In this document: piece by piece, positions 22,701 to 51,972 of the stretch
Numbering within the stretch: position 1 is the stretch's first letter
How the letters are laid out: each line of letters begins with the position of its first letter
Translations under genes and position numbers: made by a program
Notes under the pieces: model-generated
Database searches by the model: none
The model's input: the letters and a program-made list of their open reading frames with translations, nothing else
Told to the model about the DNA's origin: nothing
Source: Nitrospira sp. KM1
Lineage (GTDB): Bacteria > Nitrospirota > Nitrospiria > Nitrospirales > Nitrospiraceae
Assembly (NCBI RefSeq): GCF_011405515.1
Contig: NZ_AP022671.1
Span: 682,001 to 746,000, forward strand
DNA: 64,000 nt
Reading direction: 5' to 3'

Positions 22701-23418
22701 GGAGACAGATTCAGTCCTGACCGTCGCACAGAAATACAAACTTGCCGTCCTGGTCAATCGCCCGTTGAATGCCATGGCTACGCGAGAATCAGGAATGTTG
22801 CGCCTGGCAGAAGTGCCGCCGGAAGGAACGCCGATCGATCTCCTGAATCAATTAACGATCGTCAAGAAGCTCGAAGATGAGTATCGTGCAACCCTTGCGC
22901 CCGTCATTCCGCACGGAGGAGAAGGTACTGCGCCCGCTGAGTTCTTTCGATGGGCTGATGAACTCGGAGGTCTTCGGGAGAAAATTCAGGGATTGGAGCA
23001 TTGGGAACAGATCGAGCATCAGATGATCGCTCCGCACGTCAACCAGGTTCTGCAATCAATGCCCCGCCTCATCCCCCAATCGTCAGCCGAGCAATGGGAA
23101 ACATGGAGAGATCGTTATGTCCAAGAACTTCTCGCTCTCTTGGGTGGCTTGCGTCATGACGCAAGTGTCAAAAGCGCATCGCGGGCACAGGCCGTGACGG
23201 CTGCCCTTCATTCTGTCTTACCGGCCGAACAAGGCAAGAAGACGCTCTCCCGCAAAGCGCTCTGGACTCTCGTGAGCACACCGGGCATCGCCTGTGTCTT
23301 GGTCGGCATGCGGACGCGTGTTTACGTCGATGACGCCCTGGAAGTCATGAACTGGAAACCTCTCGCTGACGTCAAGAGCGTGTACCTCGCGGCAAGACGA
23401 GCGGCGCAATCGCTGTGA
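19753..23418 (+). CDS. DUF255/YyaL-type protein fused to aldo/keto reductase
   Basis: A 1221-residue fusion. Residues 1 to about 170 are the thioredoxin-fold DUF255 domain with the CHWC motif at 58-61 (SACHWCHVM); about 200-690 is the six-hairpin-like region of the YyaL/SSP411 family. From about 737 a complete aldo/keto reductase follows ([18 protein letters not shown]), with the tetrad residues visible: Asp in NVIDTS, Tyr in NYMDGESE, Lys in VVSKIGY and His in CLLHNPE. No stop or start separates the parts, and the linker is in frame with no Met at the reductase start. The biochemical function of DUF255 proteins is poorly known; the fusion suggests a shared redox or carbohydrate substrate. 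It converges on the exosortase locus. Confidence 0.9.
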
Positions 23419-24897: not shown

Positions 24898-25728
24898 TCA
24901 ATGAGCCAACATCTTCCACATGTTGGCAGGCGTCGCCGATGACTTCCCTGCCTTGTTCATGACGGCCCCCAGCACGGGTCGAGAGTTTTTCATCAGCGAA
25001 AGAGCCCGCTGAACCTCTTCGACCGTAGTTTTTCCTTCCTCTACGACCAGTAGCAATGCATCCGTATAGGGAGAAAATGCCAGTACGTCTGCCGTATGGA
25101 GGAGAGGCGGCAGGTCGAAAATAACAACACGGGATGGATAACGATGCTTGAATTCCTCTACCAAAGCAAGCATTTTCGGCGATGTCAGAACTTCCGTCGA
25201 ATTAGGAATAGACCTCCCGCCGGGCAAGAGTACGAAGCGACCAATGCCGGGATGAATCAACAGATCCTCGACAGGGAAATCGTCGAGGAGAAAGTCCGCA
25301 AGCCCCGGAGCATCATTGAACCCAAACACTTCATGGATGCTCGGACTTCTAAGATTGGCATCCACGAGCAACACGGTTTGTGTGATTTCCATCGCCAGAC
25401 TGACCGCAAGATTGACGGCGGTCAACGTCTTACCCTCTCCATAACCGGGACTGGTTACCCCAACGACATTCCAGCCGTTTTCGCGTAACCGATGCATGAC
25501 CTGCGTGCGCAGGATCTTGAACGCGTCCACAAAGGGTCCCTTGTTATACGCTGCCATCACACGCCGCTCACGCAAGACCGAGAGCGGAACATTCAGCGAT
25601 TTCGTACGTGTATAGACGATCGAGGATGGTACAGCCTGACCGGATCCCTGAACGGAACTGATGGGAGGAGCAGGTCGTCCCCCCTGTTGTTCTTTGAATA
25701 TCTGTATTGCAGCCCTCAAGCGGTCCAT
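24898..25728 (-). CDS. CpsD/CapB-like ATPase (exosortase-associated tyrosine autokinase type)
   Basis: Cytoplasmic partner of the chain-length protein encoded just upstream. P-loop SPGYGEGKT (93-101), Walker A-prime VLLVDANLRSP (about 118-128) and Walker B VVIFDLPP are those of BY-kinases. The C-terminus (ANMWKMLAH) lacks a tyrosine cluster, so autophosphorylation as in Wzc/CpsD is doubtful or uses other tyrosines. A GAGGAAA site precedes the ATG. 33 bp after the Wzz-type gene. Confidence 0.87.
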   Translation of the reverse strand: MDRLRAAIQIFKEQQGGRPAPPISSVQGSGQAVPSSIVYTRTKSLNVPLSVLRERRVMAAYNKGPFVDAFKILRTQVMHRLRENGWNVVGVTSPGYGEGKTLTAVNLAVSLAMEITQTVLLVDANLRSPSIHEVFGFNDAPGLADFLLDDFPVEDLLIHPGIGRFVLLPGGRSIPNSTEVLTSPKMLALVEEFKHRYPSRVVIFDLPPLLHTADVLAFSPYTDALLLVVEEGKTTVEEVQRALSLMKNSRPVLGAVMNKAGKSSATPANMWKMLAH

Positions 25729-25761: not shown

Positions 25762-27531
25762 TTACTCCATCCCGAATCGCCTGACGGTTGAATACCAGAT
25801 GACGTCCAACGGAGACCAGAAGACATGGACAAGGACGAGGACGACGACCACCGCAGCCACCCCGGCCCCTCTGATCAGTCTTCGCCGATTGATCGCCCGT
25901 GAGAGATCGCTTTCGTTCGGCATAAACGGAATCACTGCAAGCGGGAACAGTTGTGTCACATGAGCGAGCTGTTCAGGAGATTTTACGGAATGATCCAAGT
26001 TCTCGGCCGCTGCTCCTGCGCCGAACCCTCCAGCAAGTGCGAGAATGAATCCTAGAACCGCAATGGCCGGCCGATTGGGTTTTTCAGGCTTTTCCGGCAG
26101 ACTCGGTGGATCGATCAACGAGAACCGCTCCCCTTTCCGTTGAACCTCCAGCCCCTCTGAGACTTTCGCTTCCAACAAACGGGAACGGATTTCCTGATAT
26201 TTTTGACCGGACGTGTCGCGATCACGGGTGAGCGTCAAATAGTCCGGTTCGAGTTCGGGAGTTCGTTCGAGTCTGGACGCATAATCATTGAGCCGGCGTT
26301 TGACTTCTCCACGGGTCTTCCTGAGAGCATCGAGCGTGGAATTGGCAGAATTCAATTGGGCCTGGAGGTTGATATATGCAGGGTTCTCAGGGCGTGGAGC
26401 AAGGTTTTTCTTCGAAGGCTTGGCTTTGATATTCCGCACCTCCTGTTCTAGCGCCTCGATCCTCCGCATCGTGCTCACGACATCCGGGTGATCCTTTCCC
26501 AGACGTTCAGAAAATTCTGCCAATGTGGCGCGGGCATCCACGAGCGCCTTGGTGGCCTCATCGGCCTCAGGAACATGTCCGGTTTCCTTCTCCAAAGCGC
26601 CGATTTCCTGCTTCATCCGCATGATGTCGGGATGATCCGGGGAAAGATTTGCCGCCGTTCCCGCATACTCCGCCCGGAGAGCTCGAAGGCGTTCGGCCGA
26701 ATCCAGAATTCTCTCACCGCTCGCGGAGATGATCGGCGTATGCGGCTTGATAGTGGCCAATTCACCTTCGAGATAGTTTTTTCGTTCTTCGAGACTACGT
26801 ATCTGTTGTTCAACGTCCATCAATTCGCGATCGGCTTGGTTCATCAGTTGCTGATTCAGCGGTGTCAACTCGGGAAGCGCTCCTTTGGCCTGATGCTTGA
26901 ACCCGGCGATCTTGGCATCGACCTCACCGATGTGCTTGGCGAGACTTTCGGCTTCCTGTTGCAAAAACGCGGTAGCCTCCTGCGCTTGCCGTTCCCGGCT
27001 TTTTAGATTCTCCCCGAGAAACAAACTCGTCAGTTCATTCGCCACTTTTTGCGCCACTTCCGGAGATCGGCTTTCATAGGCAACGGTAAACGCGATGGTC
27101 GCCTTGGTCGGATGCTGGGTGCGCTTGTCTACGACATCGGCGCTGATCACTTCCACGTCGATATCTCTGATGAATCGCTTGACTACCTCCTCGATCGGAC
27201 TCGTCTTTCGCAACTCGGCGTATAAATCGAACTGCTCCACGACCTTCCATAGCGTGGTACGGCTCATCACCTGCTGCTTGATGGTTTCAATCCGCTGATC
27301 GGCGTAACTCGTAATAGACGAGCGCACGAGATCGGAAGGAATTTCCTGCTCTTCAATCAAGATCGTCGCCATCGACTTGTAGGTAGGAGGCCACAGCAAT
27401 GCGGCGAGCATGCTGAGAAGCAAGAGTGCCCCTCCACACGACAGAATCAGCTTTCTGCGTCGATGAAAAATCGAGACATAGTCTTGGATGCTCTGCGCGG
27501 ACGCCGTGTGGGCTTTATGCGGTGTGGTCAT
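25762..27531 (-). CDS. Wzz-type polysaccharide chain-length determinant (GNVR)
   Basis: 589-residue inner-membrane polysaccharide co-polymerase. N-terminal membrane segment LILSCGGALLLLSMLAALLW after a short cytoplasmic stretch, a long periplasmic coiled-coil region, the GNVR-like part before the second membrane segment (LPEKPEKPNRPAIAVLGFILALAGG), and a third C-terminal hydrophobic segment (GAGVAAVVVVLVLVHVFW). This matches the exosortase-locus chain-length family. It sits between the outer-membrane barrel gene and the CpsD-like ATPase. Confidence 0.9.
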   Translation of the reverse strand: MTTPHKAHTASAQSIQDYVSIFHRRRKLILSCGGALLLLSMLAALLWPPTYKSMATILIEEQEIPSDLVRSSITSYADQRIETIKQQVMSRTTLWKVVEQFDLYAELRKTSPIEEVVKRFIRDIDVEVISADVVDKRTQHPTKATIAFTVAYESRSPEVAQKVANELTSLFLGENLKSRERQAQEATAFLQQEAESLAKHIGEVDAKIAGFKHQAKGALPELTPLNQQLMNQADRELMDVEQQIRSLEERKNYLEGELATIKPHTPIISASGERILDSAERLRALRAEYAGTAANLSPDHPDIMRMKQEIGALEKETGHVPEADEATKALVDARATLAEFSERLGKDHPDVVSTMRRIEALEQEVRNIKAKPSKKNLAPRPENPAYINLQAQLNSANSTLDALRKTRGEVKRRLNDYASRLERTPELEPDYLTLTRDRDTSGQKYQEIRSRLLEAKVSEGLEVQRKGERFSLIDPPSLPEKPEKPNRPAIAVLGFILALAGGFGAGAAAENLDHSVKSPEQLAHVTQLFPLAVIPFMPNESDLSRAINRRRLIRGAGVAAVVVVLVLVHVFWSPLDVIWYSTVRRFGME

Positions 27532-27548
27532 AAGGTCGAATCACATCG

Positions 27549-28793
27549 TTAATTTGAAATGGCCAACTTTGGAGGAAAATACGTGATCGTGAACATCGTA
27601 GCATTGGAGTCGGCGATACCAATCGATCCTGTCACATCACGCTGCCCGTACGTGTAGGACAGTTGCATTCTCCACCATTCCAAGAATCTCCATGCCACTG
27701 CAGGGCTGAAGGAAAAGTACGTCTGATTCGGGAAGGCACCTCCGAGCGAACGCTCGGTCAAACCTTCGACTCGATACGCGTTGGCATTGAACGACAGCGT
27801 GATATTCTCGCTCATATTGTGAGACAATAACGCCGCGAGTTTGTCCGTCTGAATAAGCAGCCCGAAACCGCTCGGGATGATCTCTCGAGACGCAGAGAGC
27901 TGGACGGAGGAACTCTCGAATTTCTTCAACATGTTAGCCCCGAATACCCACACCGTATCTCGCGTCGACACACTCGTCCCAGGCGATTCGGACGTTGAAT
28001 TAAGAAATTTCGGTCCGCCGTATACGGTTCCAGTGAGTGATTCAGTGAATGTATGCGTTATACTCAAGTTGATTCCTGGAATGTTCGCCCTGAACGAAGA
28101 CGGAGAATCTGTCGTATGAAATGCGGCATAGGTGCCGGCAAGTTGAATTTGATCATTTTCGGTTGTCTGATAGAGCAATCCGCCCGACCCCCCATATAAT
28201 TGATAATCGACCAAACCCAGGCGAAGGCCGTCCTCATAGGTCGTGTTGGAAAATTGAAACGCCCCCTGCAATGAGAACTTTTCCGTGATACTCCTTGTCC
28301 AGGTGGGATAGGCGTTGAACTGATTTCGTTGGGTAAACCGCAGCACGACGCCGGTCGTCAGAAGTTCGCTCATCAGCGTATTGTCGCGGGTGAATCCTCC
28401 GGTGAATCCAAATTGATCCTTCTCCGTCTTATAGCGTACGGTCAGAGGGAGAAATATATTGGTGAACGACGTGCTCTCTCCCCCATAATAGGAGACGAAG
28501 TCCGACGCAACCCGCCCGCTCACCTCCAAGCGTTCGGTTTTGCCGGCAAATTCAGCCGCAGGCGAGACCCAAAAGCCATACGTTTCCTCATGCGGCAGCG
28601 GTGTAAGAAGCAGGTTACTGTTATACACGCCCTTTACTCCGATATATGGCAACAATGACCACTCTGCTGCCATGGTTTCATATTCCACACCTATTCCCAG
28701 CAAGCCCAGCACGATCAGAGCCGACACACATCGGTCTGACCATCGAAGATGCCTGCCACGATAGCAGATCACATTCCATAATAGATGTACCAC
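27549..28793 (-). CDS. Outer-membrane beta-barrel protein of the EPS locus
   Basis: 414 aa with a hydrophobic N-terminal segment (ALIVLGLLGIGV) that looks like a signal peptide, then alternating polar/aromatic strands (YIGVKGVYNSNLLLTPL, FQFSNTTYEDGLRLGL, WRMQLSYTYGQRDVTG) characteristic of an outer-membrane barrel. Barrels of this sort (TIGR03016-like, by memory) recur in exosortase loci and might pass polysaccharide. It is 5 bp from the Wza-type gene, so co-transcribed. Confidence 0.8.
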   Translation of the reverse strand: MVHLLWNVICYRGRHLRWSDRCVSALIVLGLLGIGVEYETMAAEWSLLPYIGVKGVYNSNLLLTPLPHEETYGFWVSPAAEFAGKTERLEVSGRVASDFVSYYGGESTSFTNIFLPLTVRYKTEKDQFGFTGGFTRDNTLMSELLTTGVVLRFTQRNQFNAYPTWTRSITEKFSLQGAFQFSNTTYEDGLRLGLVDYQLYGGSGGLLYQTTENDQIQLAGTYAAFHTTDSPSSFRANIPGINLSITHTFTESLTGTVYGGPKFLNSTSESPGTSVSTRDTVWVFGANMLKKFESSSVQLSASREIIPSGFGLLIQTDKLAALLSHNMSENITLSFNANAYRVEGLTERSLGGAFPNQTYFSFSPAVAWRFLEWWRMQLSYTYGQRDVTGSIGIADSNATMFTITYFPPKLAISN

Positions 28794-28798
28794 GACCG

Positions 28799-29419
28799 TT
28801 ACGGAACCATGACTACATCGCCCCGTTGCAACAGGATATTCTGTTCAAGATCTCTTCCCTTCCGAACGTCACTGTAGCGAAAAGGAAATACCTGCTGCTG
28901 GCCCTTGACGCGACGGATAACTTTGATATCGTTTTCGCCCGCGAATGGAGTGAGCCCCCCGGCAAGACTCAAGGCTTGCAGCACATCGGTATAATGTCCG
29001 ATCAGATACTCACCGGGCTTATTCACTCGTCCGACCACATAGACCTTGTAGCTCAACACCTTGATGACGGCAACGGAAACGTTCGGATTCGGGAAATATT
29101 TGACCAGCCGCTTGACCAAATCCAGACGAATCTCTTCAACGGTTCGCTCTTCGGCCTGAATATCTCCGACCAGCGGAAATGAGAACATACCGTCAGGCCT
29201 GACCACGACTTCCCGCGTCAACTGCTCGTCTTTCCACACTGAAATCAACATGACGTCTTCCGCGCCCAGGCGATACCCGGCATCGACGGCTGCTGAAGTA
29301 GGTTGAGCCCCCAACACATCGAATTCCTGGCATGACGTGTTTCCGATCGTCATTATCAGCAGTAATGCGATTACTCCGGCAGTTTGTCGATATGAGTTCG
29401 CAACGGAAGCCATCAACAT
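28799..29419 (-). CDS. Wza-type polysaccharide export protein
   Basis: 206 aa. Signal segment TAGVIALLLIMTIGNTSC ends in a lipobox-like Cys, so probably a lipoprotein. The polysaccharide-export domain (YRLGAEDVMLISVWKDEQL, VRPDGMFSFPLVGDI) and the SLBB domain (YVVGRVNKPGEYLIG, VLQALSLAGGLTPFA) follow. Shorter than E. coli Wza (379 aa), as is usual for the exosortase-locus export family. 6 bp after the TPR lipoprotein gene. Confidence 0.92.
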   Translation of the reverse strand: MLMASVANSYRQTAGVIALLLIMTIGNTSCQEFDVLGAQPTSAAVDAGYRLGAEDVMLISVWKDEQLTREVVVRPDGMFSFPLVGDIQAEERTVEEIRLDLVKRLVKYFPNPNVSVAVIKVLSYKVYVVGRVNKPGEYLIGHYTDVLQALSLAGGLTPFAGENDIKVIRRVKGQQQVFPFRYSDVRKGRDLEQNILLQRGDVVMVP

Positions 29420-29425
29420 CGTACC

Positions 29426-31816
29426 CTATCCTCTCATTTGAGATAAAACATCCTCGGCCTCTTTCCGCCCGTAAAAACTATCAGGACTCTGGACGGCTTT
29501 GGAGAGATATCCTCGTGCCTCCGCTGTCCTGCCAGAACGATAGTAGGCCATTCCCAGGTGATAATTGATGGCTGCGGCTCGAGGCAATTTGGTCGCGGCA
29601 TCTTTTATCAATCTGAGTGCCTCTTCCTGCTGCCCCATCTTGAATCGAACCCAGCCGAGCGTATCAAGGAAAGCAGGGTGAGGCGCCTCTTTTTCGAAAT
29701 CCCGGCTCAGCGCAAAGGCTTTCTGAAGGCTCTGGGGATCGCTCTTGTGATCAACGAGCAAAACAGCCAAATTATTGGCCGCAAGGACATTGCGAGGATT
29801 CAGCCGAAGCGCCTGGTCGTATGAACCAATCGCATTGTCGATTTGTCCCTGCTCCGAGTGAGCCAGCGCCAGAAGCATGTACAATTCCTCACTGCTGTCG
29901 TTCGCTCTAAGACCGACCTGCAGGACCTCAATGGCCTTCCCTGGTTGCTTTTGCGCCACCCACAATCCCGCCCAATCCAGCCAGGGAGTGATCCACCGGG
30001 GATTTACCGACGTCGCCTTCTGGAAATGGGTGTCGGCATCCGCATGCCGGCCGCCAAGGGCAAGAACTTCTCCGAGCAGTCCATGTGCATACGCATGATC
30101 GGGATGATTCGCCAGTAGCGCGTCCAGCCGTTTCCCAGCCTGATCGAGGTACCCCCTACCAACTTCCAACTTGATCAGTGCGAGAAGTGGTTCCGGTTCG
30201 TTGGGAGCTAACCCCGTTGCACGTTCATACGCACGAGCGGCCTCGTCCATCTGCCCCTGCATCTCGCGATATCGTCCTTCGGCCCAATAAGCGGCATAGC
30301 CGTTCTTCGAAGCATTGCGCAGTTTCGAAAGGGTGCGCTCGACCTCCACCCAGTTCTTGGTCATCAGGTCGAGAGTCATCAACATGTCGAGCGCGGCTAT
30401 ATCATCAGGGCGCTGTTTGAGTAGATCCTCCAAGCGGGCTCGTGCCTGACCATGCCGCCCACTCTGGGTATCCAAGGCCGCCAGCGAGCGCCTTGCATCC
30501 ACTTGGCCGGGATACAAGGCCACCGCGCGTTCAAAACTTTCCTTCGCGAGATTGATTTCTCCGGTGACCTGATAAGCCTGCCCCAACAGAAACTGCACCG
30601 TTGCCAGTTCCGGGCGGTCATGAAGAACCGTGCGGAACGCTTGGACAGCCTCTTTACCGTTTCTTCTCGCCAACGCCATTCGGCCCATGAGAACAAGGGC
30701 CTCGGACGACCGCGGATTCTCTTTCAACACTTCCTGGACCTGCCGCTCTGCGTCAACCTGCTTGCCGAGACGCAAATCGAGTTCCGCCAAGTCCACCTTG
30801 GCTTGGAGCCCAGCTGGTTTTTCCCGATATTCTTCAGCGACAGCCACATACATAGCTCGCGCCTTCTCATGCTGTCCGTTCGCCAGATAATGCGCAGCCA
30901 ATCCAAATCGGATCGCGGTCGAACGAGGCAGGTGCGATGCGGCATCTACTAACACACGTTCTGCTTCGGAGATCCTTTTCCGGTTCCCGAGATAGTCCGC
31001 TAAAATCAAACGTCGTTGCTCGTTATCAGGCTCAAGTGCAACGGCATCCCGAAGTATCGCTTCGGCCTTGCCGGTATCGCCCTGGCTGTCCAACAGACGG
31101 GCGAGCCGAAGCCGGTGATCGAAAGAAGAAGGCTCGACCTCGATCATTTTGCGGGCAATTCGTTCCGCCCCTGCCATATTCTTTTCCTGCAACAGAAGAC
31201 TGTTGAGATTGTTCAGAAGATCCATGTCTCTGGGGTGCGCCTGCAGGGCGCGGTCGAGCACGGCCTCCGCTTCCCGAAATCGTGATTCGACTCCATACAA
31301 AGTGGCAAGCATGATGGCCACGTCCGGCTCGGCCGGAAATCGTGAGGACAACTCTTCAGCTTCATTGATGGCTTCTTTCACCTTTCCTTCAGAACCCTTC
31401 ACCGCAATCTTCAAGGCGAGGGCCTGAGGATGGTTCGGATGTGATGCAAGGACCTTATCGGCAGTCGTAATGACGTGGGAGGTGAGGCGGGCTTCAAGAT
31501 AATACTTGGCGAGCGTGACCAATGCCGGCGCGTGATTCGGAACCAGTTCGACGACTTCTTGATAGAGCTGGACGGCATTGCGCCAATTCTTTTCCCTCTC
31601 CTCCACTTGAGCAAACAAATAGTAGGCGTCAGCATCCTTGGGATCGATTTTCAACACGTTCCGAAGTGCGACTCGAGCTTTAGGATAGTTGCTGACCTCA
31701 ATATATTCCTGAGCCTTGGTGAGATATTTAGCTTTACGCTCTTCCGGTCCCCCGCAGGCCATCAGAGCTGCCGCGATTCCCACAACTGCTAATGCTTGTA
31801 ACAACATGATATTCAT
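29426..31816 (-). CDS. prsT: TPR-repeat lipoprotein, PrsT type
   Basis: A 796-residue lipoprotein made almost entirely of TPR repeats. Start at 31816 (MNIMLLQALAVVG) puts the lipobox LMAC at about residues 18-21; the frame is open 54 codons upstream but without signal-peptide logic. Repeats such as YLTKAQEYIEVSNYPKARVA and AHGLLGEVLALGGRHADA run to the end. Matches the PEP-CTERM system TPR lipoprotein family (PrsT), thought to scaffold export or polymerisation. 6 bp before the Wza-type gene. Confidence 0.9.
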   Translation of the reverse strand: MNIMLLQALAVVGIAAALMACGGPEERKAKYLTKAQEYIEVSNYPKARVALRNVLKIDPKDADAYYLFAQVEEREKNWRNAVQLYQEVVELVPNHAPALVTLAKYYLEARLTSHVITTADKVLASHPNHPQALALKIAVKGSEGKVKEAINEAEELSSRFPAEPDVAIMLATLYGVESRFREAEAVLDRALQAHPRDMDLLNNLNSLLLQEKNMAGAERIARKMIEVEPSSFDHRLRLARLLDSQGDTGKAEAILRDAVALEPDNEQRRLILADYLGNRKRISEAERVLVDAASHLPRSTAIRFGLAAHYLANGQHEKARAMYVAVAEEYREKPAGLQAKVDLAELDLRLGKQVDAERQVQEVLKENPRSSEALVLMGRMALARRNGKEAVQAFRTVLHDRPELATVQFLLGQAYQVTGEINLAKESFERAVALYPGQVDARRSLAALDTQSGRHGQARARLEDLLKQRPDDIAALDMLMTLDLMTKNWVEVERTLSKLRNASKNGYAAYWAEGRYREMQGQMDEAARAYERATGLAPNEPEPLLALIKLEVGRGYLDQAGKRLDALLANHPDHAYAHGLLGEVLALGGRHADADTHFQKATSVNPRWITPWLDWAGLWVAQKQPGKAIEVLQVGLRANDSSEELYMLLALAHSEQGQIDNAIGSYDQALRLNPRNVLAANNLAVLLVDHKSDPQSLQKAFALSRDFEKEAPHPAFLDTLGWVRFKMGQQEEALRLIKDAATKLPRAAAINYHLGMAYYRSGRTAEARGYLSKAVQSPDSFYGRKEAEDVLSQMRG

Positions 31817-31859
31817 GTTCCCACCCGTGTTCGTCTTGGTATCTGTAACCCCGTGGTGC

Positions 31860-33497
31860 TCACCATATCCACATCCGTATGCCAAGACCGAATAAAATCC
31901 ACAATGAAACAAGGCCGAGTTGCTTAACTCGGTCTGAGAACGCATGTAACAGCAACTCAAACGAAAAGAATAGGACAATCAATTTCGCCGAGAACAGTCC
32001 TAATTTGGAAATATTCTGGCTGACTTCTGGCAGCAAAGGGAAAATGACCGCCAGAAACACCATAAGATAGTCCAAGGGGGTTGTCTGAAATCTACTCTGT
32101 TCGTCGAATCGAAGACAGAGAAACACCATAATCGCCACAATTACAAAAAACACTTTGTGAGTCATGCTGAAAGCCGTCACGGTCCGAAGCCATGAATCCT
32201 CGCTGACATAAAGAAGGAAGGTGGTTCCGACATAAAGCCCTCCACGGACAAAATACGGAACAAACCTTGGGAAAAACGATAGGCCTCCCAGTACAATCCC
32301 AAAGAGCGCGAATGAGAGGTAGCCCACATCCGATGGTACCTGCCCCGGAAGCAACACTAAGCCAACCAGAAAAAGCGGCACGGCCACGGCTAGAAATCGA
32401 ATGGGCATGTCGGTAAGCCATGGCCCGTTCATCAGCCCGCTTATCCGAACGCTAGACAGAAAACGCCCGTCCCGGGAGGCCGTTAACGGCTGAACGCCAC
32501 GCCCGGCTGCGATAAAAATGCCAAGGACTGATCCTGCAATTGTCAGATACAGCGGAATAATGAGCAAATCGGACTGCCATCTGAGTAGGTAGGCCATCCA
32601 AAGCATTGTTGCTTGAATCGCGTAGATGACGATCACGGCCTCGTAATGAGACAAACCTACCGCAAGCAATTTATGGTGGATGTGAGCGCGATCTCCGACG
32701 AATGGCGACCGGCCCTCTGCGATACGTTGTGCCGTGACACCCAATGTGTCAAGAAAGGGCAAGCCCAGAAGAAATAATGCGAGGCTCGGACTGAACGGAC
32801 CACGTGCCGAATCAGTCACCATAACGGCCAATACCCCCATCATGAATCCAAGTAATTGGCTTCCCCCGTCTCCCATGAAAATTCGAGCTGGATATGTGTT
32901 GTATCGCAGAAATCCTAGAAGGCCGCCGAGCAACGGAATGCTCAGCAGCAGAACCGTCGTGTCGTGTGAAAGATACGCAAGGTAGGCAATCCCTGAAAGA
33001 CTTAAAAAGGACAGCCCGCCGGCAAGACCGTCCAACCCATCGGTCAAATTGACGGCATTTGAAACACCGATGAGAAATATCAGCGTGATGGGTATCCCAA
33101 TCCACACGGGTAACTCAGCATCAATCATGAACGGAACGGTGCCAAATTTAATTCCTCCGATCAGGATCACGACCATGGCGGCAAGCATCTGGCCCAGCAG
33201 TTTCATCCGATATCCGAGATCCACACGATCGTCCCATACTCCGAATCCAAGTATGATCACGCTCCCGAAAAGAACAGATAATGTCGTTCCGTCCCTCGGT
33301 GCCCACAACGCAATACTGATACAAGTACCGACGGCAAATGCGATTCCTCCAACGCGTGGCACCGGGTGCGCATGCACCTTGCGCTCGCCTGGAATATCCA
33401 TAAATCGAAATCGAGCCGCCATGAGTCGGAGCGGCGGAATGAGCGCCATACAGATCAGGAGCGAGGTCATAAAGCTGAAAAACAATTCGCTGTTCAT
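31860..33497 (-). CDS. Polyprenyl-phosphate HexNAc-1-phosphate transferase (WecA/MraY-like) with C-terminal membrane extension
   Basis: Starts the lipid-linked repeat unit by moving a sugar-1-phosphate to undecaprenyl phosphate. Family motifs: GGIAFAVG, DDRVDLGYRMKLLGQ, NLTDGLDGLAGG, RIFMGDGGSQLLG and DRAHIHHKLL. The catalytic part fills about 350 residues; about 190 further residues contain roughly seven hydrophobic segments (from IRFLAVAVPLFLVGLVLLPG to LGLVSLWILFGLGIRMWIW) that are not part of WecA. The extension may be a partner membrane domain; I do not recognise it. It lies 27 bp downstream of xrtD. Confidence 0.88.
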   Translation of the reverse strand: MNSELFFSFMTSLLICMALIPPLRLMAARFRFMDIPGERKVHAHPVPRVGGIAFAVGTCISIALWAPRDGTTLSVLFGSVIILGFGVWDDRVDLGYRMKLLGQMLAAMVVILIGGIKFGTVPFMIDAELPVWIGIPITLIFLIGVSNAVNLTDGLDGLAGGLSFLSLSGIAYLAYLSHDTTVLLLSIPLLGGLLGFLRYNTYPARIFMGDGGSQLLGFMMGVLAVMVTDSARGPFSPSLALFLLGLPFLDTLGVTAQRIAEGRSPFVGDRAHIHHKLLAVGLSHYEAVIVIYAIQATMLWMAYLLRWQSDLLIIPLYLTIAGSVLGIFIAAGRGVQPLTASRDGRFLSSVRISGLMNGPWLTDMPIRFLAVAVPLFLVGLVLLPGQVPSDVGYLSFALFGIVLGGLSFFPRFVPYFVRGGLYVGTTFLLYVSEDSWLRTVTAFSMTHKVFFVIVAIMVFLCLRFDEQSRFQTTPLDYLMVFLAVIFPLLPEVSQNISKLGLFSAKLIVLFFSFELLLHAFSDRVKQLGLVSLWILFGLGIRMWIW

Positions 33498-33523: not shown

Positions 33524-35107
33524 TTAGTCAGGCACATAACGGTTCAATTCCGGCACGACGGTCGACACGAATTTCTCCAAGCGACGATTGACGTTTTCCT
33601 CCGACTCGCCTGGTCCCACCAATGACGCGATGCGTACGAGCGCTCCGTCTGTGCGGCTTCTGGACAAGGAATCCCATAATAAATAGAACTTCACAAGATA
33701 TTCACTGGCCAAAATTCGATCACGCTGCTTGAACCAATAGAGGACGACCTGCCGCTGATTATCTTTCTTGATCAATGCCCGATTCATATGCATCGGCTGC
33801 GGAAATCCGTGGTACAGGGGCACATCCATGGTCTTTAACGACTCGATTTCCCATCCACCGCCTGGGAGGCAACTCTGTGGAGAATGTGCAGATTGGCCCT
33901 TCCGTTGAGAGCGGTAATAGGCGCTATAGAGGCTGATGGGATAGCCATCGTTCGATATATATTCGGCCAGCACATAGTCATCGAAGTGCAGAGCGTCGAT
34001 ATATTGCTTTTCCAACAACTGAGGCGTCCCGGTCCATTCATCCAAATGCATGGGAAAATCAATGAACATGCGCCTCTCCGGAGCGACTTCTACACGCTCT
34101 CCAATAAACACAGAAGCGACTGCTGCTGGGACAAGCAGCGCGACACTGCAAAGATACGCAGGGGTTGTCGATAGACTTCTTTGACCCATACGACTGTGAG
34201 AGGATGGGAGCGGGCTCCCCATCCGAACCGGAGAACGGTCGATCCAGCTGAAACGATCGCTCAATGACCTCCCGGTGCCGACAGGATCGACTATCGTTAG
34301 AATCCACATTTCGAGGATAAGCAACCCCAGACTGGCCATGAACAGCACCCACCCCTCGAACAAATGATAAAAGCCTTCTGCGGCAGACTGACCATGCCAC
34401 TCCACCATCACACCGATCATCCCGATACGAAATCCGTTGACTAAGATCGAAATCGGTACGGAAGACACTACTAATATGACGCGTTTCCATAACCGGTCCT
34501 TGAACAGATACGCGCACAGAAGTGCGAGCGAGAGCAGCGGGAGCATATAGCGGATACCGCTGCATGCCTCGACAACTTGGAGCTGAACGGGTCCCAGATC
34601 GATGACATTTCCTTCTCGAAAGGCTATTACTCCGACAAACTGGAGACATCCCACGCCCAAAGCTGATGACCATAACTGGAGCCGGCTCGACAGGCCGGCA
34701 TACAGAAATACGGGGAGCGGAATACTGGTCAACAAATACAACAGTGGAAACGTTACCTCTCGAGCCGCTCGCAAGCCAATCAATGAAACGACGACTCCCA
34801 CGATGATCACCCATAAAGCCAGGTGTTGAAACGCATAGAGTGCCGCCAATTCACCGACCCAATAGAAGGCCAATCCTATGGCGATAATAGCCGGACCGTA
34901 CCAAGATGAACGGATCCCAACAGCCGCGATGCGATGACGTGCTTGCCATGCCAGAAAGAGACTGATGAATGGCACGAACAATCCATGACTGTAATCCTCG
35001 CTCTCGGTCCAATAGGTAAACAAGACTCTGAGACTGTCGGAAAAGAGATACCCGAGAATGCCGATTAGGAAAAAGAGGCTGGATGCCAAGGCCAGCTTGC
35101 CGCTCAT
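33524..35107 (-). CDS. xrtD: Exosortase fused to EpsI domain, XrtD type (VPLPA-CTERM-specific)
   Basis: Multi-pass transpeptidase-like enzyme that cleaves C-terminal sorting signals. The exosortase part (1 to about 280) has the three catalytic residues: Cys182 in VVEACSGIRYMLP, Arg227 in LVNGFRIGM and His248 in GFYHLFEGW. After another hydrophobic segment (LCSVALLVPAAVASVF) comes an EpsI domain (about 330-527) with HSPQSCLPGGGWEIES. The fusion and the two VPLPA proteins encoded next to it match the XrtD group. Start at 35107 has a GAGG site 5 nt upstream; frame is open further but without homology. 527 aa. Confidence 0.9.
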   Translation of the reverse strand: MSGKLALASSLFFLIGILGYLFSDSLRVLFTYWTESEDYSHGLFVPFISLFLAWQARHRIAAVGIRSSWYGPAIIAIGLAFYWVGELAALYAFQHLALWVIIVGVVVSLIGLRAAREVTFPLLYLLTSIPLPVFLYAGLSSRLQLWSSALGVGCLQFVGVIAFREGNVIDLGPVQLQVVEACSGIRYMLPLLSLALLCAYLFKDRLWKRVILVVSSVPISILVNGFRIGMIGVMVEWHGQSAAEGFYHLFEGWVLFMASLGLLILEMWILTIVDPVGTGRSLSDRFSWIDRSPVRMGSPLPSSHSRMGQRSLSTTPAYLCSVALLVPAAVASVFIGERVEVAPERRMFIDFPMHLDEWTGTPQLLEKQYIDALHFDDYVLAEYISNDGYPISLYSAYYRSQRKGQSAHSPQSCLPGGGWEIESLKTMDVPLYHGFPQPMHMNRALIKKDNQRQVVLYWFKQRDRILASEYLVKFYLLWDSLSRSRTDGALVRIASLVGPGESEENVNRRLEKFVSTVVPELNRYVPD

Positions 35108-35259
35108 CACAACCTCAGCGGTATTGGATCTCGGGCAAGACAAGTTCATCACAACTGGAACACCGAGTGTCCAACCGGAGCGCTCCACACAAATGTTCCA
35201 TGACACACTCCGCATCTGCACGCACGGTGAATGGGATTGGGAATTAAGAGCAGTGTTAC

Positions 35260-35297
35260 AAAGAAAGGGCTTGGCACCCAACGAGGATACCAAGCCC
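35260..35297 (-). terminator. Rho-independent terminator after the first VPLPA gene
   Basis: 8-bp perfect stem (GGGCTTGG 35297-35290 on the minus strand with CCAAGCCC 35274-35267), a 15-nt loop, then TTTCTTT. It lies 25 nt after the stop of the VPLPA protein gene at 35322 and would partly insulate it from xrtD. Confidence 0.7.
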
Positions 35298-35321
35298 ATC
35301 GCGCCTCACCTTCGAGTGAGC

Positions 35322-35987
35322 TTATGCTTGGGTACGTTGAAGATTCCGCAAGCCCCCGGCCCCCAGTCCTACCAACGAAATAAGACCCGCTCCGAACAAG
35401 ATCACCGCAGCCGGCAGGGGCACCGCAGTGAGTTTGTTCAGTGAACCCTGGACCCGAACCAGATCCCCCTGTGCATTTTCGAATACAAGTCTCCATCGTG
35501 TCCCTGTTAAGGAGGAGAGGCTTGGCGGATTCTGCAAATTCGTATTTGCAAACAGACTCCCCTCTCGATCCAGATTCAGATCGAAGGAACTCGGCGTGTA
35601 CCCGTTGACTGCAGCGCCTGTTGCCGCCGTCACCAGCCGCCAACGGTCGCCCAGCATGCCACCGCCAAGATCGATCCCTTTCAAAACCGAAACAGTGTTG
35701 GCTCCCGGTGCATACGAAGACGTGTATCCGCCGACAGACAGCGTCATATTTGTCACGACGCCAGGATAATTCCCACCCGTTGCAAGCGTGTTATCAAACT
35801 GAAACGTCCCGGAAACAGAAGAGGTCGGGTTGATCGTCGGCAACAACGCACCGTTAACTTGCCCCACGCTTCCGGTAAATGAATAGCTCACCAATGCCGC
35901 ATGAGCTGGACTCTGCAACAGCAAGACACACAATGTGATCGCAGGCAGCAGAATTCGTTTCAGCGGCCCCTGCTTGATAATCTCCAT
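35322..35987 (-). CDS. VPLPA-CTERM sorted secreted protein (copy 1)
   Basis: 221 aa. Signal peptide (LLPAITLCVLLLQSPAHA, cut near residue 30), a beta-rich mature domain with no Cys, and a C-terminal sorting signal: VPLPAAVILF, a hydrophobic helix (GAGLISLVGLGAGG) and a basic tail (LRNLQRTQA). The start at 35987 follows AAGGAGAGATCGGT. The mature domain is homologous to copy 2 at 36234 (shared F.FTG.VG.V, PPSLSS, RLVFE.A.G). Function of the mature domain unknown; presumably exported by Sec, then cleaved by XrtD and attached to or released with the polysaccharide layer. Confidence 0.88.
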   Translation of the reverse strand: MEIIKQGPLKRILLPAITLCVLLLQSPAHAALVSYSFTGSVGQVNGALLPTINPTSSVSGTFQFDNTLATGGNYPGVVTNMTLSVGGYTSSYAPGANTVSVLKGIDLGGGMLGDRWRLVTAATGAAVNGYTPSSFDLNLDREGSLFANTNLQNPPSLSSLTGTRWRLVFENAQGDLVRVQGSLNKLTAVPLPAAVILFGAGLISLVGLGAGGLRNLQRTQA

Positions 35988-36039
35988 ACCGATCTCTCCT
36001 TCGATTAAAGGTGGTCCATTCTGCACGGCTTTCGGATAA

Positions 36040-36054
36040 GCAAATCCCAGACCG
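36040..36054 (-). promoter_or_regulatory. Possible sigma-54 promoter upstream of VPLPA gene 1
   Basis: On the minus strand, GG at 36053-36052 and GC at 36041-36040 are exactly 10 bases apart, with TTGCTT around the -12 element, the core spacing of a sigma-54 promoter. It lies about 52 nt before the ATG. The -24 element (CGGTCTG) is a weak match to TGGCACG. Exosortase substrates in other bacteria are associated with sigma-54 control by PrsK/PrsR, but neither is seen here. Confidence 0.25.
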
Positions 36055-36168
36055 CACAACCACCCATTATCTAGTTGAAATCGCAGGGATACAAACAGAG
36101 GATCAAATGTGCCTGTTGGTCATACCCTACGGACACAGTGCAATTCTGGATCGCGATAAGAAGAAACT

Positions 36169-36200
36169 TCCCACCTGATGTCATATGACATCAGGTGGGA
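36169..36200. repeat. Perfect 32-bp palindrome between the VPLPA genes
   Basis: Sixteen-base arms without a loop (left arm TCCCACCTGATGTCAT, right arm its exact reverse complement). It begins 34 bp after the stop of VPLPA gene 2 and lies about 180 bp upstream of VPLPA gene 1. On the minus strand it is followed by AGTTTCTTCTT, so it can act as a terminator for gene 2; its perfect symmetry would also suit a dimeric protein-binding site. Confidence 0.8.
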
Positions 36201-36209
36201 TGATCCGAC

Positions 36210-36224
36210 CGGACATAATGTCCG
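36210..36224 (-). terminator. Small hairpin directly after VPLPA gene 2
   Basis: CGGACA-TAA-TGTCCG, a perfect 6-bp stem and 3-nt loop, lies 10 bp after the stop of VPLPA gene 2 and 10 bp from the 32-bp palindrome. No T-run follows directly, so it may be a stabilising 3' hairpin and not a terminator on its own. Confidence 0.45.
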
Positions 36225-36233
36225 ATGAGCACA

Positions 36234-36917
36234 TCACGCCGTCATGGTGAAACGATTTTTTTGCGGCCTCCACCCTCCTGCACCGAGTCCGATCAACGCT
36301 ATCAAGCCTGCAGAAAACAGCATGACTGCTGCCGGTAACGGAACGGCGGTCAGGGAAGTCAGCGAGCCCCGCGCACGAACGTTGCCGCTTGCATCTTCAA
36401 ATACCAGGCGAAACTGATTGCTCGCAAAGGATGAAAGACTGGGTGGCGTGGTCGGCAATGCTGCACTGGTAAAGGCTGTTCCATTGTTATTGTCGAGTTC
36501 AATGTGGAATTGCAACGGCGCAAAGCCTTGGACGGAATTGCCCGAAAGAGGCGCCGTCAGCGCAAAACTGTCCATCGACGGTAAATTCTGGATCCGGATA
36601 GCATTGCTTCCGCTTCCCAGAGTTCCGGTAAAGGAACCAAGATTGACGGTCAAACCCTGAATGGCTCCATTGTAGAGTCCTATGTTCGCACCCGGATTGC
36701 TGTCAGGCGTTGTGGATTGAAATGTGAATGACCCGCTGAGGGTCTGGCCGGTGTTGAGAGCAGGAAATACCGACGGGCTTACTTCTCCCACCGCGCCGGT
36801 AAATGCAAATTGTAAGAGCGCGGCTGATGCTTGATGGCTCGGTAAAGCTCCGGACATCAGTGTCAGCGCGAGTGCACTGGCTCCGGTTAATGCGATCAAA
36901 TGCTTCTTTTTCGTCAT
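36234..36917 (-). CDS. VPLPA-CTERM sorted secreted protein (copy 2)
   Basis: 227 aa, paralogue of the 35322 gene. Signal peptide (KKKHLIALTGASALALTL ... ASA, about 37 residues), Cys-free beta-rich domain (LLQFAFTGAVGEVSPSV, LTVNLGSFTGTLGSG), and the sorting signal VPLPAAVMLFSAGLIALIG with basic tail. Start at 36917 follows GGAGGGA; five codons upstream would be another Met. A stem-loop lies in its leader. Function unknown; processed by XrtD by inference from the neighbouring gene and the motif. Confidence 0.88.
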   Translation of the reverse strand: MTKKKHLIALTGASALALTLMSGALPSHQASAALLQFAFTGAVGEVSPSVFPALNTGQTLSGSFTFQSTTPDSNPGANIGLYNGAIQGLTVNLGSFTGTLGSGSNAIRIQNLPSMDSFALTAPLSGNSVQGFAPLQFHIELDNNNGTAFTSAALPTTPPSLSSFASNQFRLVFEDASGNVRARGSLTSLTAVPLPAAVMLFSAGLIALIGLGAGGWRPQKNRFTMTA

Positions 36918-38616: not shown

Positions 38617-40299
38617 CTATTGAATGGTCTGGATTGAATCGATCTTTGTGATACGGTATCCGAGCATCATCGGGGCATCAGCTGCGCGAGTGCAGATAAT
38701 AGATGCGTTCTTCATTTCCCTACCAAACTCCGGATAGTAATCCCCCTCTGCAAGCGCAATCTCAGATTGATCGCAGGCCTCGATGATGACGACCGCGCGA
38801 CCGGAGCGATCTCGCACACTAACGGAGCTACCATCTAAGCATGCATGAAGATCGGGATGGAGATGGATGTAGTTCCTTGCAATGTGCTTTCCTGTCCCTT
38901 CTATCCTATCGCGCACTTGCCAACATGAATGTCCATCGTATTCGATGGATCTTGTGTGCACAAGGCCACCTGAGATTCTTCTATATCCGTTATGTGAACC
39001 TTCAAATATCAGACGGTTATCAGACTCAATCCTCGCATACGCGTGCAAAGCTCTTGCCCGTTGCGCAACACGAAACACTCCCCACATTTCAGACTGCTCC
39101 TGTCCATCGATCTCTACTGTGTTGTGAGCACGTGTGCTACGCGCATACCGTCGCTGAGGACTGGGCTGATAGTCATATATCCCGCTGTCCACGATCACGC
39201 GGCGGCCGTCTATGGCCAGTTCGTAGCTGAGTGTATCGCAATGTGCGTGCCCTGGCTGATAAGTTGGCCCAATGTCGCCGCAATCGATGACCATCATGTC
39301 ATTACGATTTCTAAGCGCAAAATACCCGCTTTGCGGCTTTTCGATCGCTACGCGAGCAAGGTTGCTTTGAGGTCTCTTATAGCCGATGATTTGAGCCGCG
39401 TACCTAAAAATCTCATCCGGTGCTGGAGCAATGCCGATCGCTGAATCGTTAAAAAGAGGAATCATGCCGTCCGGGAGACAGATGTCGTGCAGAAAGTCCA
39501 AGGATCGATTCATACGAGTACGGAAATGATCGAACTCTCTGAAGCGTTTTCCCACGGACGAACCCATCACATTGAGCACATCGAGATAGTCCATGACGCA
39601 GATACAATGGTACATCGGACTTCTTTCGTAATGGCCGCCATCTGAGAGAAATTGCTCCTCGAGTTCTTCCCGCAGAATCTTCAATCCGGTTTCAATCCAT
39701 CGATCGGCATCGTCTCCTTGGAAATACATTCCGGCAAAAAACAGCGCAACACCATTCTTGAGATAATGGTTCGCGAGAATATGATATTCGATATTGCGTT
39801 CCAACCAGAGCGCCTGATGGTAAAGACTCTTGTTCCACTCAGGTGGAACGGCCACCTGATCTCCATTGAAAAACTTAATCCAATTCACGATGCGCAGCGA
39901 AGCCGTGTAGGGCTCCCAAGCATCCTCCATACCTGCAGGAACATGGAGCACCCAATCTGCAACCAACTGCGCCTTGTCTGGGGTCGATCGCGCTGGATCG
40001 TTCAAATAGTCAAAATAGTGAAGATTGTAACGCCACAGCTTGGGCATCTCGCCCGAGGACCAATCCACAGCGTCATGAGAAAATGTTTTTTTTCGATTTA
40101 AGAAGCACAACGTGTGCTCGGCGGATGATTTCTGAGCACCCGTAGGACTCGATTGAATCAGAATTTTCCCGCGAACAGGCGGAAGAACTTCGCGACACTT
40201 TGGAATGGAGGAAGGACACAGCCGCCGGCGCACGAAATAGACGATTTGTGAGAGCTTCAGATACCGAAGGGTCCCCGCATACAGGCGTATTCGATCCAT
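38617..40299 (-). CDS. Heparinase II/III-like protein
   Basis: 560 aa with start at 40299 (MDRIRLYAGTLRYLKL), 8 bp after the preceding gene. An N-terminal alpha/alpha region (WIKFFNGDQVAVPPEWNKSL, ANHYLKNGVALFFAGMYF) is followed by a beta-rich heparinase C-terminal domain (QPGHAHCDTLSYELAIDGRR, RAHNTVEIDGQEQSEMW). These are polysaccharide-lyase-fold proteins found in many EPS clusters, where they may trim or modify the polymer. No clear signal peptide. Confidence 0.85.
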   Translation of the reverse strand: MDRIRLYAGTLRYLKLSQIVYFVRRRLCPSSIPKCREVLPPVRGKILIQSSPTGAQKSSAEHTLCFLNRKKTFSHDAVDWSSGEMPKLWRYNLHYFDYLNDPARSTPDKAQLVADWVLHVPAGMEDAWEPYTASLRIVNWIKFFNGDQVAVPPEWNKSLYHQALWLERNIEYHILANHYLKNGVALFFAGMYFQGDDADRWIETGLKILREELEEQFLSDGGHYERSPMYHCICVMDYLDVLNVMGSSVGKRFREFDHFRTRMNRSLDFLHDICLPDGMIPLFNDSAIGIAPAPDEIFRYAAQIIGYKRPQSNLARVAIEKPQSGYFALRNRNDMMVIDCGDIGPTYQPGHAHCDTLSYELAIDGRRVIVDSGIYDYQPSPQRRYARSTRAHNTVEIDGQEQSEMWGVFRVAQRARALHAYARIESDNRLIFEGSHNGYRRISGGLVHTRSIEYDGHSCWQVRDRIEGTGKHIARNYIHLHPDLHACLDGSSVSVRDRSGRAVVIIEACDQSEIALAEGDYYPEFGREMKNASIICTRAADAPMMLGYRITKIDSIQTIQ

Positions 40300-40307
40300 G
40301 AAACGAT

Positions 40308-42461
40308 TTATGCCAAGGAGTCCATGATATCGAACGTCGTTCTGGTTACCTCCACGAGCTCGTGAAAGGGAATTGGGGACGGGCCTCCTTGTCGGATGGC
40401 GTCCACAAACGCAGCGACGCATGCGGCATTGCCTTTATCCTGCCGCCAAAGATTCATCTTTCTGAATCCCGGCCATCCAAACCCGGTCAGTCTCCGGAAA
40501 TTATCCAGCTGCAAGACTCTTCCTGTTGAAAAGACTTCGAGCCTTTCTTTTGGGAACGATTTATGGCCGTTGGCAAGATAATGAATCGTGCCCGTTGAAC
40601 CATTCTCAAATTTCATTGAGATCACGACCTTATCGTCTCGGACGATCGCATGATTGGACGATCCCATCATCAACGCCTGTACAGTAGTCACAGGTGATCC
40701 AACCAAGAAACGGAGGAGATCAACAAAATGGCATCCCTCTCCGATGATCCGACCTCCCCCAATCTGGCGATCCTGAGTCCAATGCTCGGGAGGAATATGG
40801 CCGGCATTGACGGTCATGATGAAGGTCTTCGGCTGTTCTATGCTGACAAGCAATCGCTTCATTTCCACGATTTGCGGAGAGAATCGCCGATTGAATCCCA
40901 CCATCAACAGTGGAGATGAATTCTTTTTATCAGCGCATACGGATTGATACAGTTGGATTATTGCATCAAGATCTTCCCGAGTGATCGCCAGCGGTTTTTC
41001 GACAAACACATGCTTCCCGGCTTTCAGTGAATCGCAGACCAGTCGTGCATGACTATCATGTCGAGTCGCAATGACTATCGTATTCGTAAGCACGGAGTCG
41101 ATTACGCTCCTGCCGTCTGATGTCGCTTCTGCAAAGCCGAACTTCCGACCGGCATGGGCCGCGCTCACTCCTGTACTGCTGGCAACTGAATGCAATCCCG
41201 CCCCTGCGCTTTTGAAAGCGGGGAGGAGTACTTGAGTCGCATAATTGCCGGCCCCAATACACCCGACGACCGGGTCTGAGGCCGTGATGGAATGAGGCTC
41301 TTGGGAGAGCGTAACCGTCCTGATCGACAATCTTTTCGTTGAAGACTCCTTCGAAGCCGGATACTGCAAGATAATGCCAAGAGACGGTGTCCCGCTTGAA
41401 ATGAGATCGTACGCGGCGAGGGCTGTGTCGAAAGGGATGCGATGGGAAATGAGCGGGCCCACGTCCAACCTGCGATCGGCTAGCATATCGAGAACGGCTT
41501 CGAAGTTTCGCTGTTCCGTCCAGCGGACGAGCCCAAACGGGTAATCCTGCCCACATTCTTCATATTGCGGATCGTACCGCCCGGGTCCATACGAGCAGGA
41601 AACCTGAAAGCTCAACTCTTTTTCGTAGAAATCGGCCCGTGATAGTTCCAACCCAGTTACTCCTACCAAGACGATGCGTCCGCGTTTGCGGCACATCAGG
41701 GCTGCCTGATGTACAGGCTCGTTACTCTTCGTGGACGCCGTGATGATGACCGCATCAACTCCTCGTCCTCGTGAAAAGGCCATGGCGGCATCGAGTGGAT
41801 CGGGGTTCTGAGCGAGGTTGAGAACATCAGCTCCAAAGATCTCCGCCAGAGTGAGCTTGGCCGGATCGTAGTCGAGCCCCAGAACCCGACACCCATGAGC
41901 TTTGAGCAATTGAACCGTCATTAAGCCGATGAGGCCCAAGCCGGTTACCACCACGGCCTCCCCCAAAGTGGGTTGAAGCAACCGTATGCCTTGCAACGCA
42001 ATCGCCCCAACAACCGTGAAGGCGGCCTCTTCGTCTCCGACGAGATCAGGGATCTTTGCACACAAGTTTCGCGGCACGCAGACGATTTCGGCGTGCTTTC
42101 CGTTCGATGCCACCCGATCGCCAATGGCAAATCCGGCCACACCGTCGCCCACTTCCAAAATCCTCCCTACGTTGCAATATCCCATCGGCAGCGGCTGATC
42201 TAGCTTGTGGCGTACCGCATCAATCGTTGGCATCAACCCATCCGCTTTCACTTTATCCAGCACCATCCGCACTTTTTCAGGTTGCTGACGAGCCTTGTCG
42301 ATCCAATTGGCCTTGCCGAATTCGACCAACATACGCTCGGTGCCCGAGGAAACCAACGAGCGCGTCGTTTCAATGAGGAGATGGTTCTCTCTCACTTTCG
42401 GAGATGGAATCTCACTCAGATGGGTTTCGCCGGATCCCAGGTGCTGCAGAATCTGTTTCAT
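40308..42461 (-). CDS. Bi-domain oxidoreductase: alcohol-dehydrogenase-like plus Gfo/Idh/MocA
   Basis: 717 aa. The N-terminal half (1 to about 360) is a medium-chain dehydrogenase (GLGLIGLMTVQLLKAHGCRVLGLDYD) without an obvious structural-zinc loop; the second half (from about 395) is a Gfo/Idh/MocA oxidoreductase (VVGCIGAGNYATQVLLP, HVFVEKPLA). Proteins with this fusion occur next to heparinase-like genes in capsule loci. It probably oxidises or epimerises a nucleotide sugar or lipid-linked sugar. Overlapping context: its start is 1 bp from the CapK-like gene and its stop 8 bp from the heparinase-like gene. Confidence 0.88.
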   Translation of the reverse strand: MKQILQHLGSGETHLSEIPSPKVRENHLLIETTRSLVSSGTERMLVEFGKANWIDKARQQPEKVRMVLDKVKADGLMPTIDAVRHKLDQPLPMGYCNVGRILEVGDGVAGFAIGDRVASNGKHAEIVCVPRNLCAKIPDLVGDEEAAFTVVGAIALQGIRLLQPTLGEAVVVTGLGLIGLMTVQLLKAHGCRVLGLDYDPAKLTLAEIFGADVLNLAQNPDPLDAAMAFSRGRGVDAVIITASTKSNEPVHQAALMCRKRGRIVLVGVTGLELSRADFYEKELSFQVSCSYGPGRYDPQYEECGQDYPFGLVRWTEQRNFEAVLDMLADRRLDVGPLISHRIPFDTALAAYDLISSGTPSLGIILQYPASKESSTKRLSIRTVTLSQEPHSITASDPVVGCIGAGNYATQVLLPAFKSAGAGLHSVASSTGVSAAHAGRKFGFAEATSDGRSVIDSVLTNTIVIATRHDSHARLVCDSLKAGKHVFVEKPLAITREDLDAIIQLYQSVCADKKNSSPLLMVGFNRRFSPQIVEMKRLLVSIEQPKTFIMTVNAGHIPPEHWTQDRQIGGGRIIGEGCHFVDLLRFLVGSPVTTVQALMMGSSNHAIVRDDKVVISMKFENGSTGTIHYLANGHKSFPKERLEVFSTGRVLQLDNFRRLTGFGWPGFRKMNLWRQDKGNAACVAAFVDAIRQGGPSPIPFHELVEVTRTTFDIMDSLA

Positions 42462-51893: not shown

Positions 51894-51972
51894 TTTCACC
51901 TACCGTCAGTCGCGGCCAAACGCCCACCAATCGATAGGCCCTCCATTTACGCAACCTATTTTGAAACGTACG

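Follow-up and report, generated by a model that had tools for sequence, protein, structure and literature searches.

A probable dedicated XrtD exosortase system, with a distinct VPLPA-type tail class, beside a general one in Nitrospira sp. KM1

The 64,000-nucleotide stretch of the Nitrospira sp. KM1 genome analysed here (contig NZ_AP022671.1, positions 682,001 to 746,000; hereafter the window, numbered from its first letter) encodes an XrtD exosortase-EpsI fusion and, directly beside it, two secreted proteins with VPLPA-type sorting signals, within a locus for the export of extracellular polymeric substances (EPS). The two proteins share a near-invariant tail of a distinct class that tracks one clade of XrtD enzymes, and we therefore consider that the window probably holds a dedicated XrtD system, rather than a small general one, which resides beside a general system in the same genome. 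The kind of exosortase system is known; the private signal class and the co-residence appear to be new. General exosortase systems have too many substrates for a dissection of how these are chosen and of the partners to which they are attached. The window system narrows this problem to a single enzyme with one or two neighbouring proteins, and the sister XrtD with some 20 other proteins in the same KM1 cell provides an internal control, and thus a natural test of target choice.

The exosortase is encoded at 33524-35107 on the reverse strand. Its reading frame is open from 35299 (33524-35299 (-)), and a start at the ATG at 35107, giving 527 amino acids, fits the numbering of the catalytic residues Cys182, Arg227 and His248 exactly. 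The original prediction of an XrtD exosortase-EpsI fusion with this triad was borne out: TIGR04152 (XrtD) yields 529.2 bits against a cutoff of 400, the best score among the exosortase groups of NCBIfam, and the C, R and H are kept in 91, 92 and 92 of the 92 aligned XrtDs, respectively. Assignment to another group was also checked, and the enzyme falls below the cutoffs of both XrtW, the next group (310.8 bits, cutoff 425), and XrtA (198.4 bits, cutoff 208). The EpsI domain fused at the C-terminus is recognised by TIGR02914 (145.9 bits, cutoff 42.8), and PF09721 and PF11984 also match the protein. The predicted structure, with a mean confidence (pLDDT) of 85.5, has a helical membrane domain; a fold search with this model brought up nothing in the PDB at E≤0.001, and a search by sequence likewise turned up no solved relative. 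In the EpsI half, His408, Ser409, Pro410 and Cys413 (residues 408-413, HSPQSC) are invariant in 40 of 40 aligned XrtDs and would suit a second catalytic step, while the model of this half bears a weak, non-significant resemblance to DcrB/PsbP-type folds.

Directly upstream of xrtD, on the same strand and as had been predicted, lie the genes of substrate 1 (35322-35987 (-), 221 amino acids from the ATG at 35987) and its paralogue substrate 2 (36234-36917 (-), 227 amino acids from the ATG at 36917), which are 40% identical to each other. In each protein a hydrophobic signal sequence stands at the N-terminus, and the C-terminal part consists of VPLPA, a membrane helix and, last, a short stretch with one or a few Arg/Lys; among the window's open reading frames (ORFs) of at least 60 amino acids these two alone end in a VPLPA-type signal. 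The sorting signals are VPLPAAVILFGAGLISLVGLGAGGLRNLQRTQA for substrate 1 (35325-35423 (-)) and VPLPAAVMLFSAGLIALIGLGAGGWRPQKNRFTMTA for substrate 2 (36237-36344 (-)). The claim that these are VPLPA sorting signals holds for the literal motif, since VPLPA, helix and basic C-terminal residues are present in both, but not for the curated VPLPA-CTERM family: TIGR03370 has a cutoff of 25.35, and the pair gave 10.6 bits (substrate 1) and no hit. The two tails instead belong to one near-invariant class with the consensus AVPLPAAVxLFGAGLIxLxGLGAGGxR (the GLGAGG tail; E=2.6e-23 for the match of substrate 2 to a model of it), unlike the ordinary VPxPA...ARR tail (the ARR tail). A signal class found throughout this lineage, an ecologically important group of nitrifiers, hence escapes the curated model. 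The model of substrate 1 is beta-rich (core pLDDT ~90) with a predicted beta-sandwich as the mature domain, and a fold search with it returned no PDB match at E≤0.001.

A substrate-seeded scan revealed that the order substrate-XrtD-GT4-PrsT-Wza-outer membrane protein, where GT4 is a glycosyl transferase of family 4, recurs in dozens of Nitrospira loci. Because loci seeded on the tail would select on the tail, a separate set of 92 XrtDs was gathered by similarity of the enzyme, and the upstream gene was then read whatever its tail. In this set, 61 XrtDs, including the window enzyme, form a clade (clade A; support 0.992, and 96/96 in a 20-row IQ-TREE maximum-likelihood tree). A VPLPA protein is encoded directly upstream of 56 of the 61 clade A enzymes and of none of the other 31. 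Among the five exceptions, the contig of G132 ends just upstream, G144 offers too little upstream sequence, and G147 has its substrate about 1 kb upstream; G097 (locus L265) retains a decayed substrate, still bearing the tail, beside an intact XrtD, and G078 (L304) has a degenerate XrtD and no substrate, so that a loss of the substrate-XrtD pair is possible in these two genomes. Two short ORFs with tails below a curated family cutoff could in principle owe their position and their matching tails to chance or annotation artefacts; the preservation of the same gene order in dozens of genomes rules this out for practical purposes. Several Nitrospira have additional members of the substrate family (L146, L149, L152 and L155), whose tail is the variant VPLPPAVLLFGAGLIALVGLGVGG and whose flanks, as far as covered, contain no xrtD.

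The pair is not alone in its genome. A genome-wide search for VPLPA proteins, which the original prediction had proposed, found with TIGR03370 some 20 KM1 proteins with ARR tails, for example PVPVPAAVWLFGSGLAAMVGFARR, most of which cluster at 4,378-4,422 kb, 3,970-3,982 kb and 2,167-2,171 kb. Furthermore, a second XrtD at 4,447 kb, 51% identical to that of the window, also passes the TIGR04152 cutoff and sits in an EPS locus of its own, whose GT4, PrsT, Wza, outer membrane protein, kinase and ATPase genes are homologous to those of the window (43-59% identity). The notion of an enzyme with its own pair of substrates therefore survives as two adjoining proteins with a distinct tail, but not as the only XrtD or the only VPLPA-type proteins of KM1, and the phenotype of an xrtD mutant by itself would be ambiguous.

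The distribution of tails was compared with that of the enzymes in 120 Nitrospiraceae genomes of at least 90% completeness, each searched for XrtD, for the GLGAGG tail (E≤1e-9) and for TIGR03370 (E≤1e-4). The GLGAGG tail was found in 59 of 61 genomes with a clade A XrtD and in 11 of 59 without one (p=3e-20, by a Fisher test that, to the detriment of our reading, treats related genomes as independent, so that this and the following p-values are optimistic). The ARR tail, in turn, was found in 23 of 28 genomes with another XrtD versus 14 of 92 without (p=1e-10), and it showed no association with clade A (p=1.0). Among the clade A genomes alone, ARR tails occur in 14 of 16 with a second XrtD and in 5 of 45 without (p=5e-8), a difference that is also seen within genus g5 (p=6e-6). 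In this clade-A-only group of 45, the ARR tail is absent from 40 genomes, and the GLGAGG tail occurs exactly once in 29; G001 and G029, which likewise have clade A only, each show a single strong tail match in the whole genome, beside xrtD.

The tail is also what selection appears to keep. The comparison was repeated on loci anchored on XrtD, which removes the selection bias of loci seeded on the tail: among 55 such substrates, identity is 82.5% in the tail against 38% in the mature domain, with the tail the more similar part in 99.8% of pairs. Gene conversion was considered as a source of this conservation and rejected: at identical residues codons are reused to an equal degree in the tail and in the mature domain (0.37 vs 0.39), and selection therefore acts on the peptide. 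Such conservation spans the whole helix (GAGLISLVGLGAGG, with repeated small residues), the last eight residues hold on average about one Arg/Lys, and the C-terminal helix is intact in the predicted structure of substrate 1, all of which would suit a permanent glycine-rich helix whose main task is to dock the protein, within the membrane, to XrtD or to the machinery of EPS export. We hold this to be improbable, however, as no part of the tail varies less than the V-P-L-P core, as expected of an exosortase site, and the catalytic triad of the adjacent enzyme is preserved in almost every genome. On the enzyme side, two positions consistently set the XrtD clades apart, 38 (D vs N, beside the YSHG motif) and 185 (I vs L, three residues past the catalytic Cys), and these are a lead to what may govern XrtD specificity.

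The two tail classes also differ in what precedes their genes. A sigma-54-type -24/-12 site, GGTCTGGGATTTGC, lies at 36040-36053 (-), 66 nt upstream of the ATG of substrate 1, and such an element is present about 60-125 nt before the substrate ATG at 37 of 54 orthologous loci, where 0.023 would be expected per 300 nt (p ~5e-48). None was found upstream of the 17 genes with ARR tails that were scanned. The stretch between the genes of substrates 1 and 2 contains two perfect palindromes that precede the sigma-54-type site by 110-170 nt, CGGACATTATGTCCG (about 36210-36224) and TCCCACCTGATGTCATATGACATCAGGTGGGA (36169-36200); they could be a terminator or an enhancer. A conserved enhancer-like dyad upstream of the site was sought and not found, and relatives do not share the palindromes of the window.

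Several points, besides the optimistic p-values, weigh against a dedicated system. Among the 11 genomes with a GLGAGG-like tail and no clade A XrtD, three (G019, G065 and G080) have it 5-6 kb from a non-A XrtD, and those of G032, G093, G137, G150 and G073 are unexplained. ARR tails are present in 14 genomes that lack a non-A XrtD, G115 alone having 16. No sigma-54 site was found in the N. defluvii-type subclade or upstream of substrate 2, and the best KM1 match to the regulator PrsK, a histidine kinase, reached 109 bits with a cutoff of 300. Finally, the core VP(L/V/I)PAAxxLFG is common to both tail classes, and cross-processing between them is possible for that reason. This shared core, the fact that both KM1 enzymes pass the same TIGR04152 cutoff, and the genomes with a tail class but no matching enzyme clade could be accommodated by one common pool, in which both XrtDs process every VPxPA protein and GLGAGG is a lineage spelling kept by vertical descent beside xrtD. 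We regard this as unlikely, given that the tail classes follow the enzyme clades in the 120 genomes and also within clade A alone, that conservation of the tail greatly exceeds that of the domain attached to it, which drift would not give, and that the residues by which the clades differ lie close to the catalytic Cys and to the conserved YSHG motif. As for the ARR tails without a partner, G115, G113 and G114 have several canonical VPLPA-CTERM tails and no close XrtD (G115 has a relative of 33% identity); these tails may be served by another exosortase.

Under the dedicated system that we favour, the two substrates would be made from their own genes, substrate 1 from the sigma-54-type promoter. 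As follows from their anatomy and from established knowledge of exosortases, they would cross the inner membrane by Sec and then be held there by the C-terminal helix with its tail VPLPAAVxLFGAGLIxLxGLGAGG. The clade A XrtD next door would bind this private tail and, as its family makes likely, cut at or near VPLPA by means of Cys182, Arg227 and His248. It would then hand on the mature beta-sandwich protein, the probable recipient being the polymer that the same locus makes and exports, and the processed protein might help to keep EPS attached to the cell or within flocs. KM1 is a nitrite-oxidising bacterium in pure culture; its cells aggregate, its EPS is scarce and its flocs are weak (PMC7522533). 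The XrtD at 4,447 kb, with its own EPS locus, would handle the roughly 20 ARR-tail proteins, and co-occurrence suggests that the two enzymes keep separate substrates. A stronger version, which we put forward tentatively and with somewhat more doubt than belief, has two mutually exclusive channels of one exosortase family that differ in signal spelling, in regulation (sigma-54 or not) and in EPS locus, whose proteins are tied to different polymers and whose specificity comes from a small number of residues close to the catalytic Cys and from the glycine-rich end of the tail.

The window resembles several known systems without coinciding with any. With VPLPA-CTERM/XrtD (TIGR03370/TIGR04152) it shares an enzyme above the XrtD cutoff, the EpsI fusion, a literal VPLPA with membrane helix and the EPS locus, but its tail lies far below the TIGR03370 cutoff and ends in GLGAGG-LRN rather than ARR; moreover, a system of the window type has one to few adjacent substrates, and it shares the cell with another XrtD system, a general one. 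For rhombosortase/GlyGly-CTERM, dedicated sorting with one enzyme and one adjacent target has been described (PMC3237569). In the clade-A-only genomes, too, the single target, which 29 of the 45 have, usually adjoins the enzyme gene; here, however, the enzyme is an exosortase, and KM1 has two targets plus a general system run by an enzyme of the same family. In Aquincola, the RpoN-dependent PEP-CTERM protein PepA, encoded beside prsT, keeps EPS bound to the cells in an XrtA/PEP-CTERM floc system (PMC9850573). The window has in common with it a PEP-CTERM-type protein in an EPS-prsT region, a sigma-54-type promoter and similar export genes; the match to the PepA model is weak (22 bits, cutoff 80), and the window differs in its XrtD, in VPLPA instead of PEP, in belonging to Nitrospirota, in having no PrsK over the cutoff and in that PrsT is its only gene to pass an XrtA-system model. 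Most PEP-CTERM genes of Proteobacteria have a sigma-54 motif in front of them (PMC1569441). The PEP-CTERM/EpsH hypothesis of that report matches the window in the sigma-54 GG/GC element upstream, the separate gene and the long intergenic region, but in Nitrospira the element belongs to the dedicated substrates and is absent from the general ones scanned. A literature search, which left most subscription journals outside it so that an earlier description is possible, returned no text naming XrtD together with exosortase, and VPLPA-CTERM was mentioned once, in passing.

The EPS export locus predicted around xrtD is present, although only PrsT exceeds the cutoff of its XrtA/PEP-CTERM-system model, the Wza-, Wzz-, kinase- and ATPase-like genes being clearly related but below theirs. 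All run on the reverse strand. Adjoining XrtD, as in most related loci, is a WecA-like sugar-phosphate transferase of the GT4 family for EPS initiation (31860-33497 (-); PF00953, 141 bits), followed by the TPR lipoprotein PrsT (29426-31978 (-); TIGR02917, 316.8 bits, cutoff 312.2), a Wza-like polysaccharide export lipoprotein (28799-29419 (-); TIGR03027, 134.7 bits, cutoff 180) and a PEP-CTERM-associated, TIGR03016-like outer membrane protein, syntenic in relatives (27549-28793 (-); 31.8 bits, below the cutoff of 90.85). Next come a Wzz-like chain length determinant (25762-27531 (-); TIGR03007, 263.6 bits, cutoff 278.85), a tyrosine autokinase of the XrtA-associated type (24898-25728 (-); TIGR03018, 186.6 bits, cutoff 230.65) and an ATPase of the PEP-CTERM-system type with a TPR-like C-terminus (23437-24831 (-); TIGR03015, 236.7 bits, cutoff 324.5). 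Within the EPS locus there are also a Heparinase II/III-like enzyme (38617-40422) and a GH123-like one (50130-51899), which hint at a polymer with uronic acid or N-acetylhexosamine. Finally, a 1221-amino-acid ORF at 19753-23418 joins a DsbH-like thioredoxin domain (DUF255) to an aldo/keto reductase domain.

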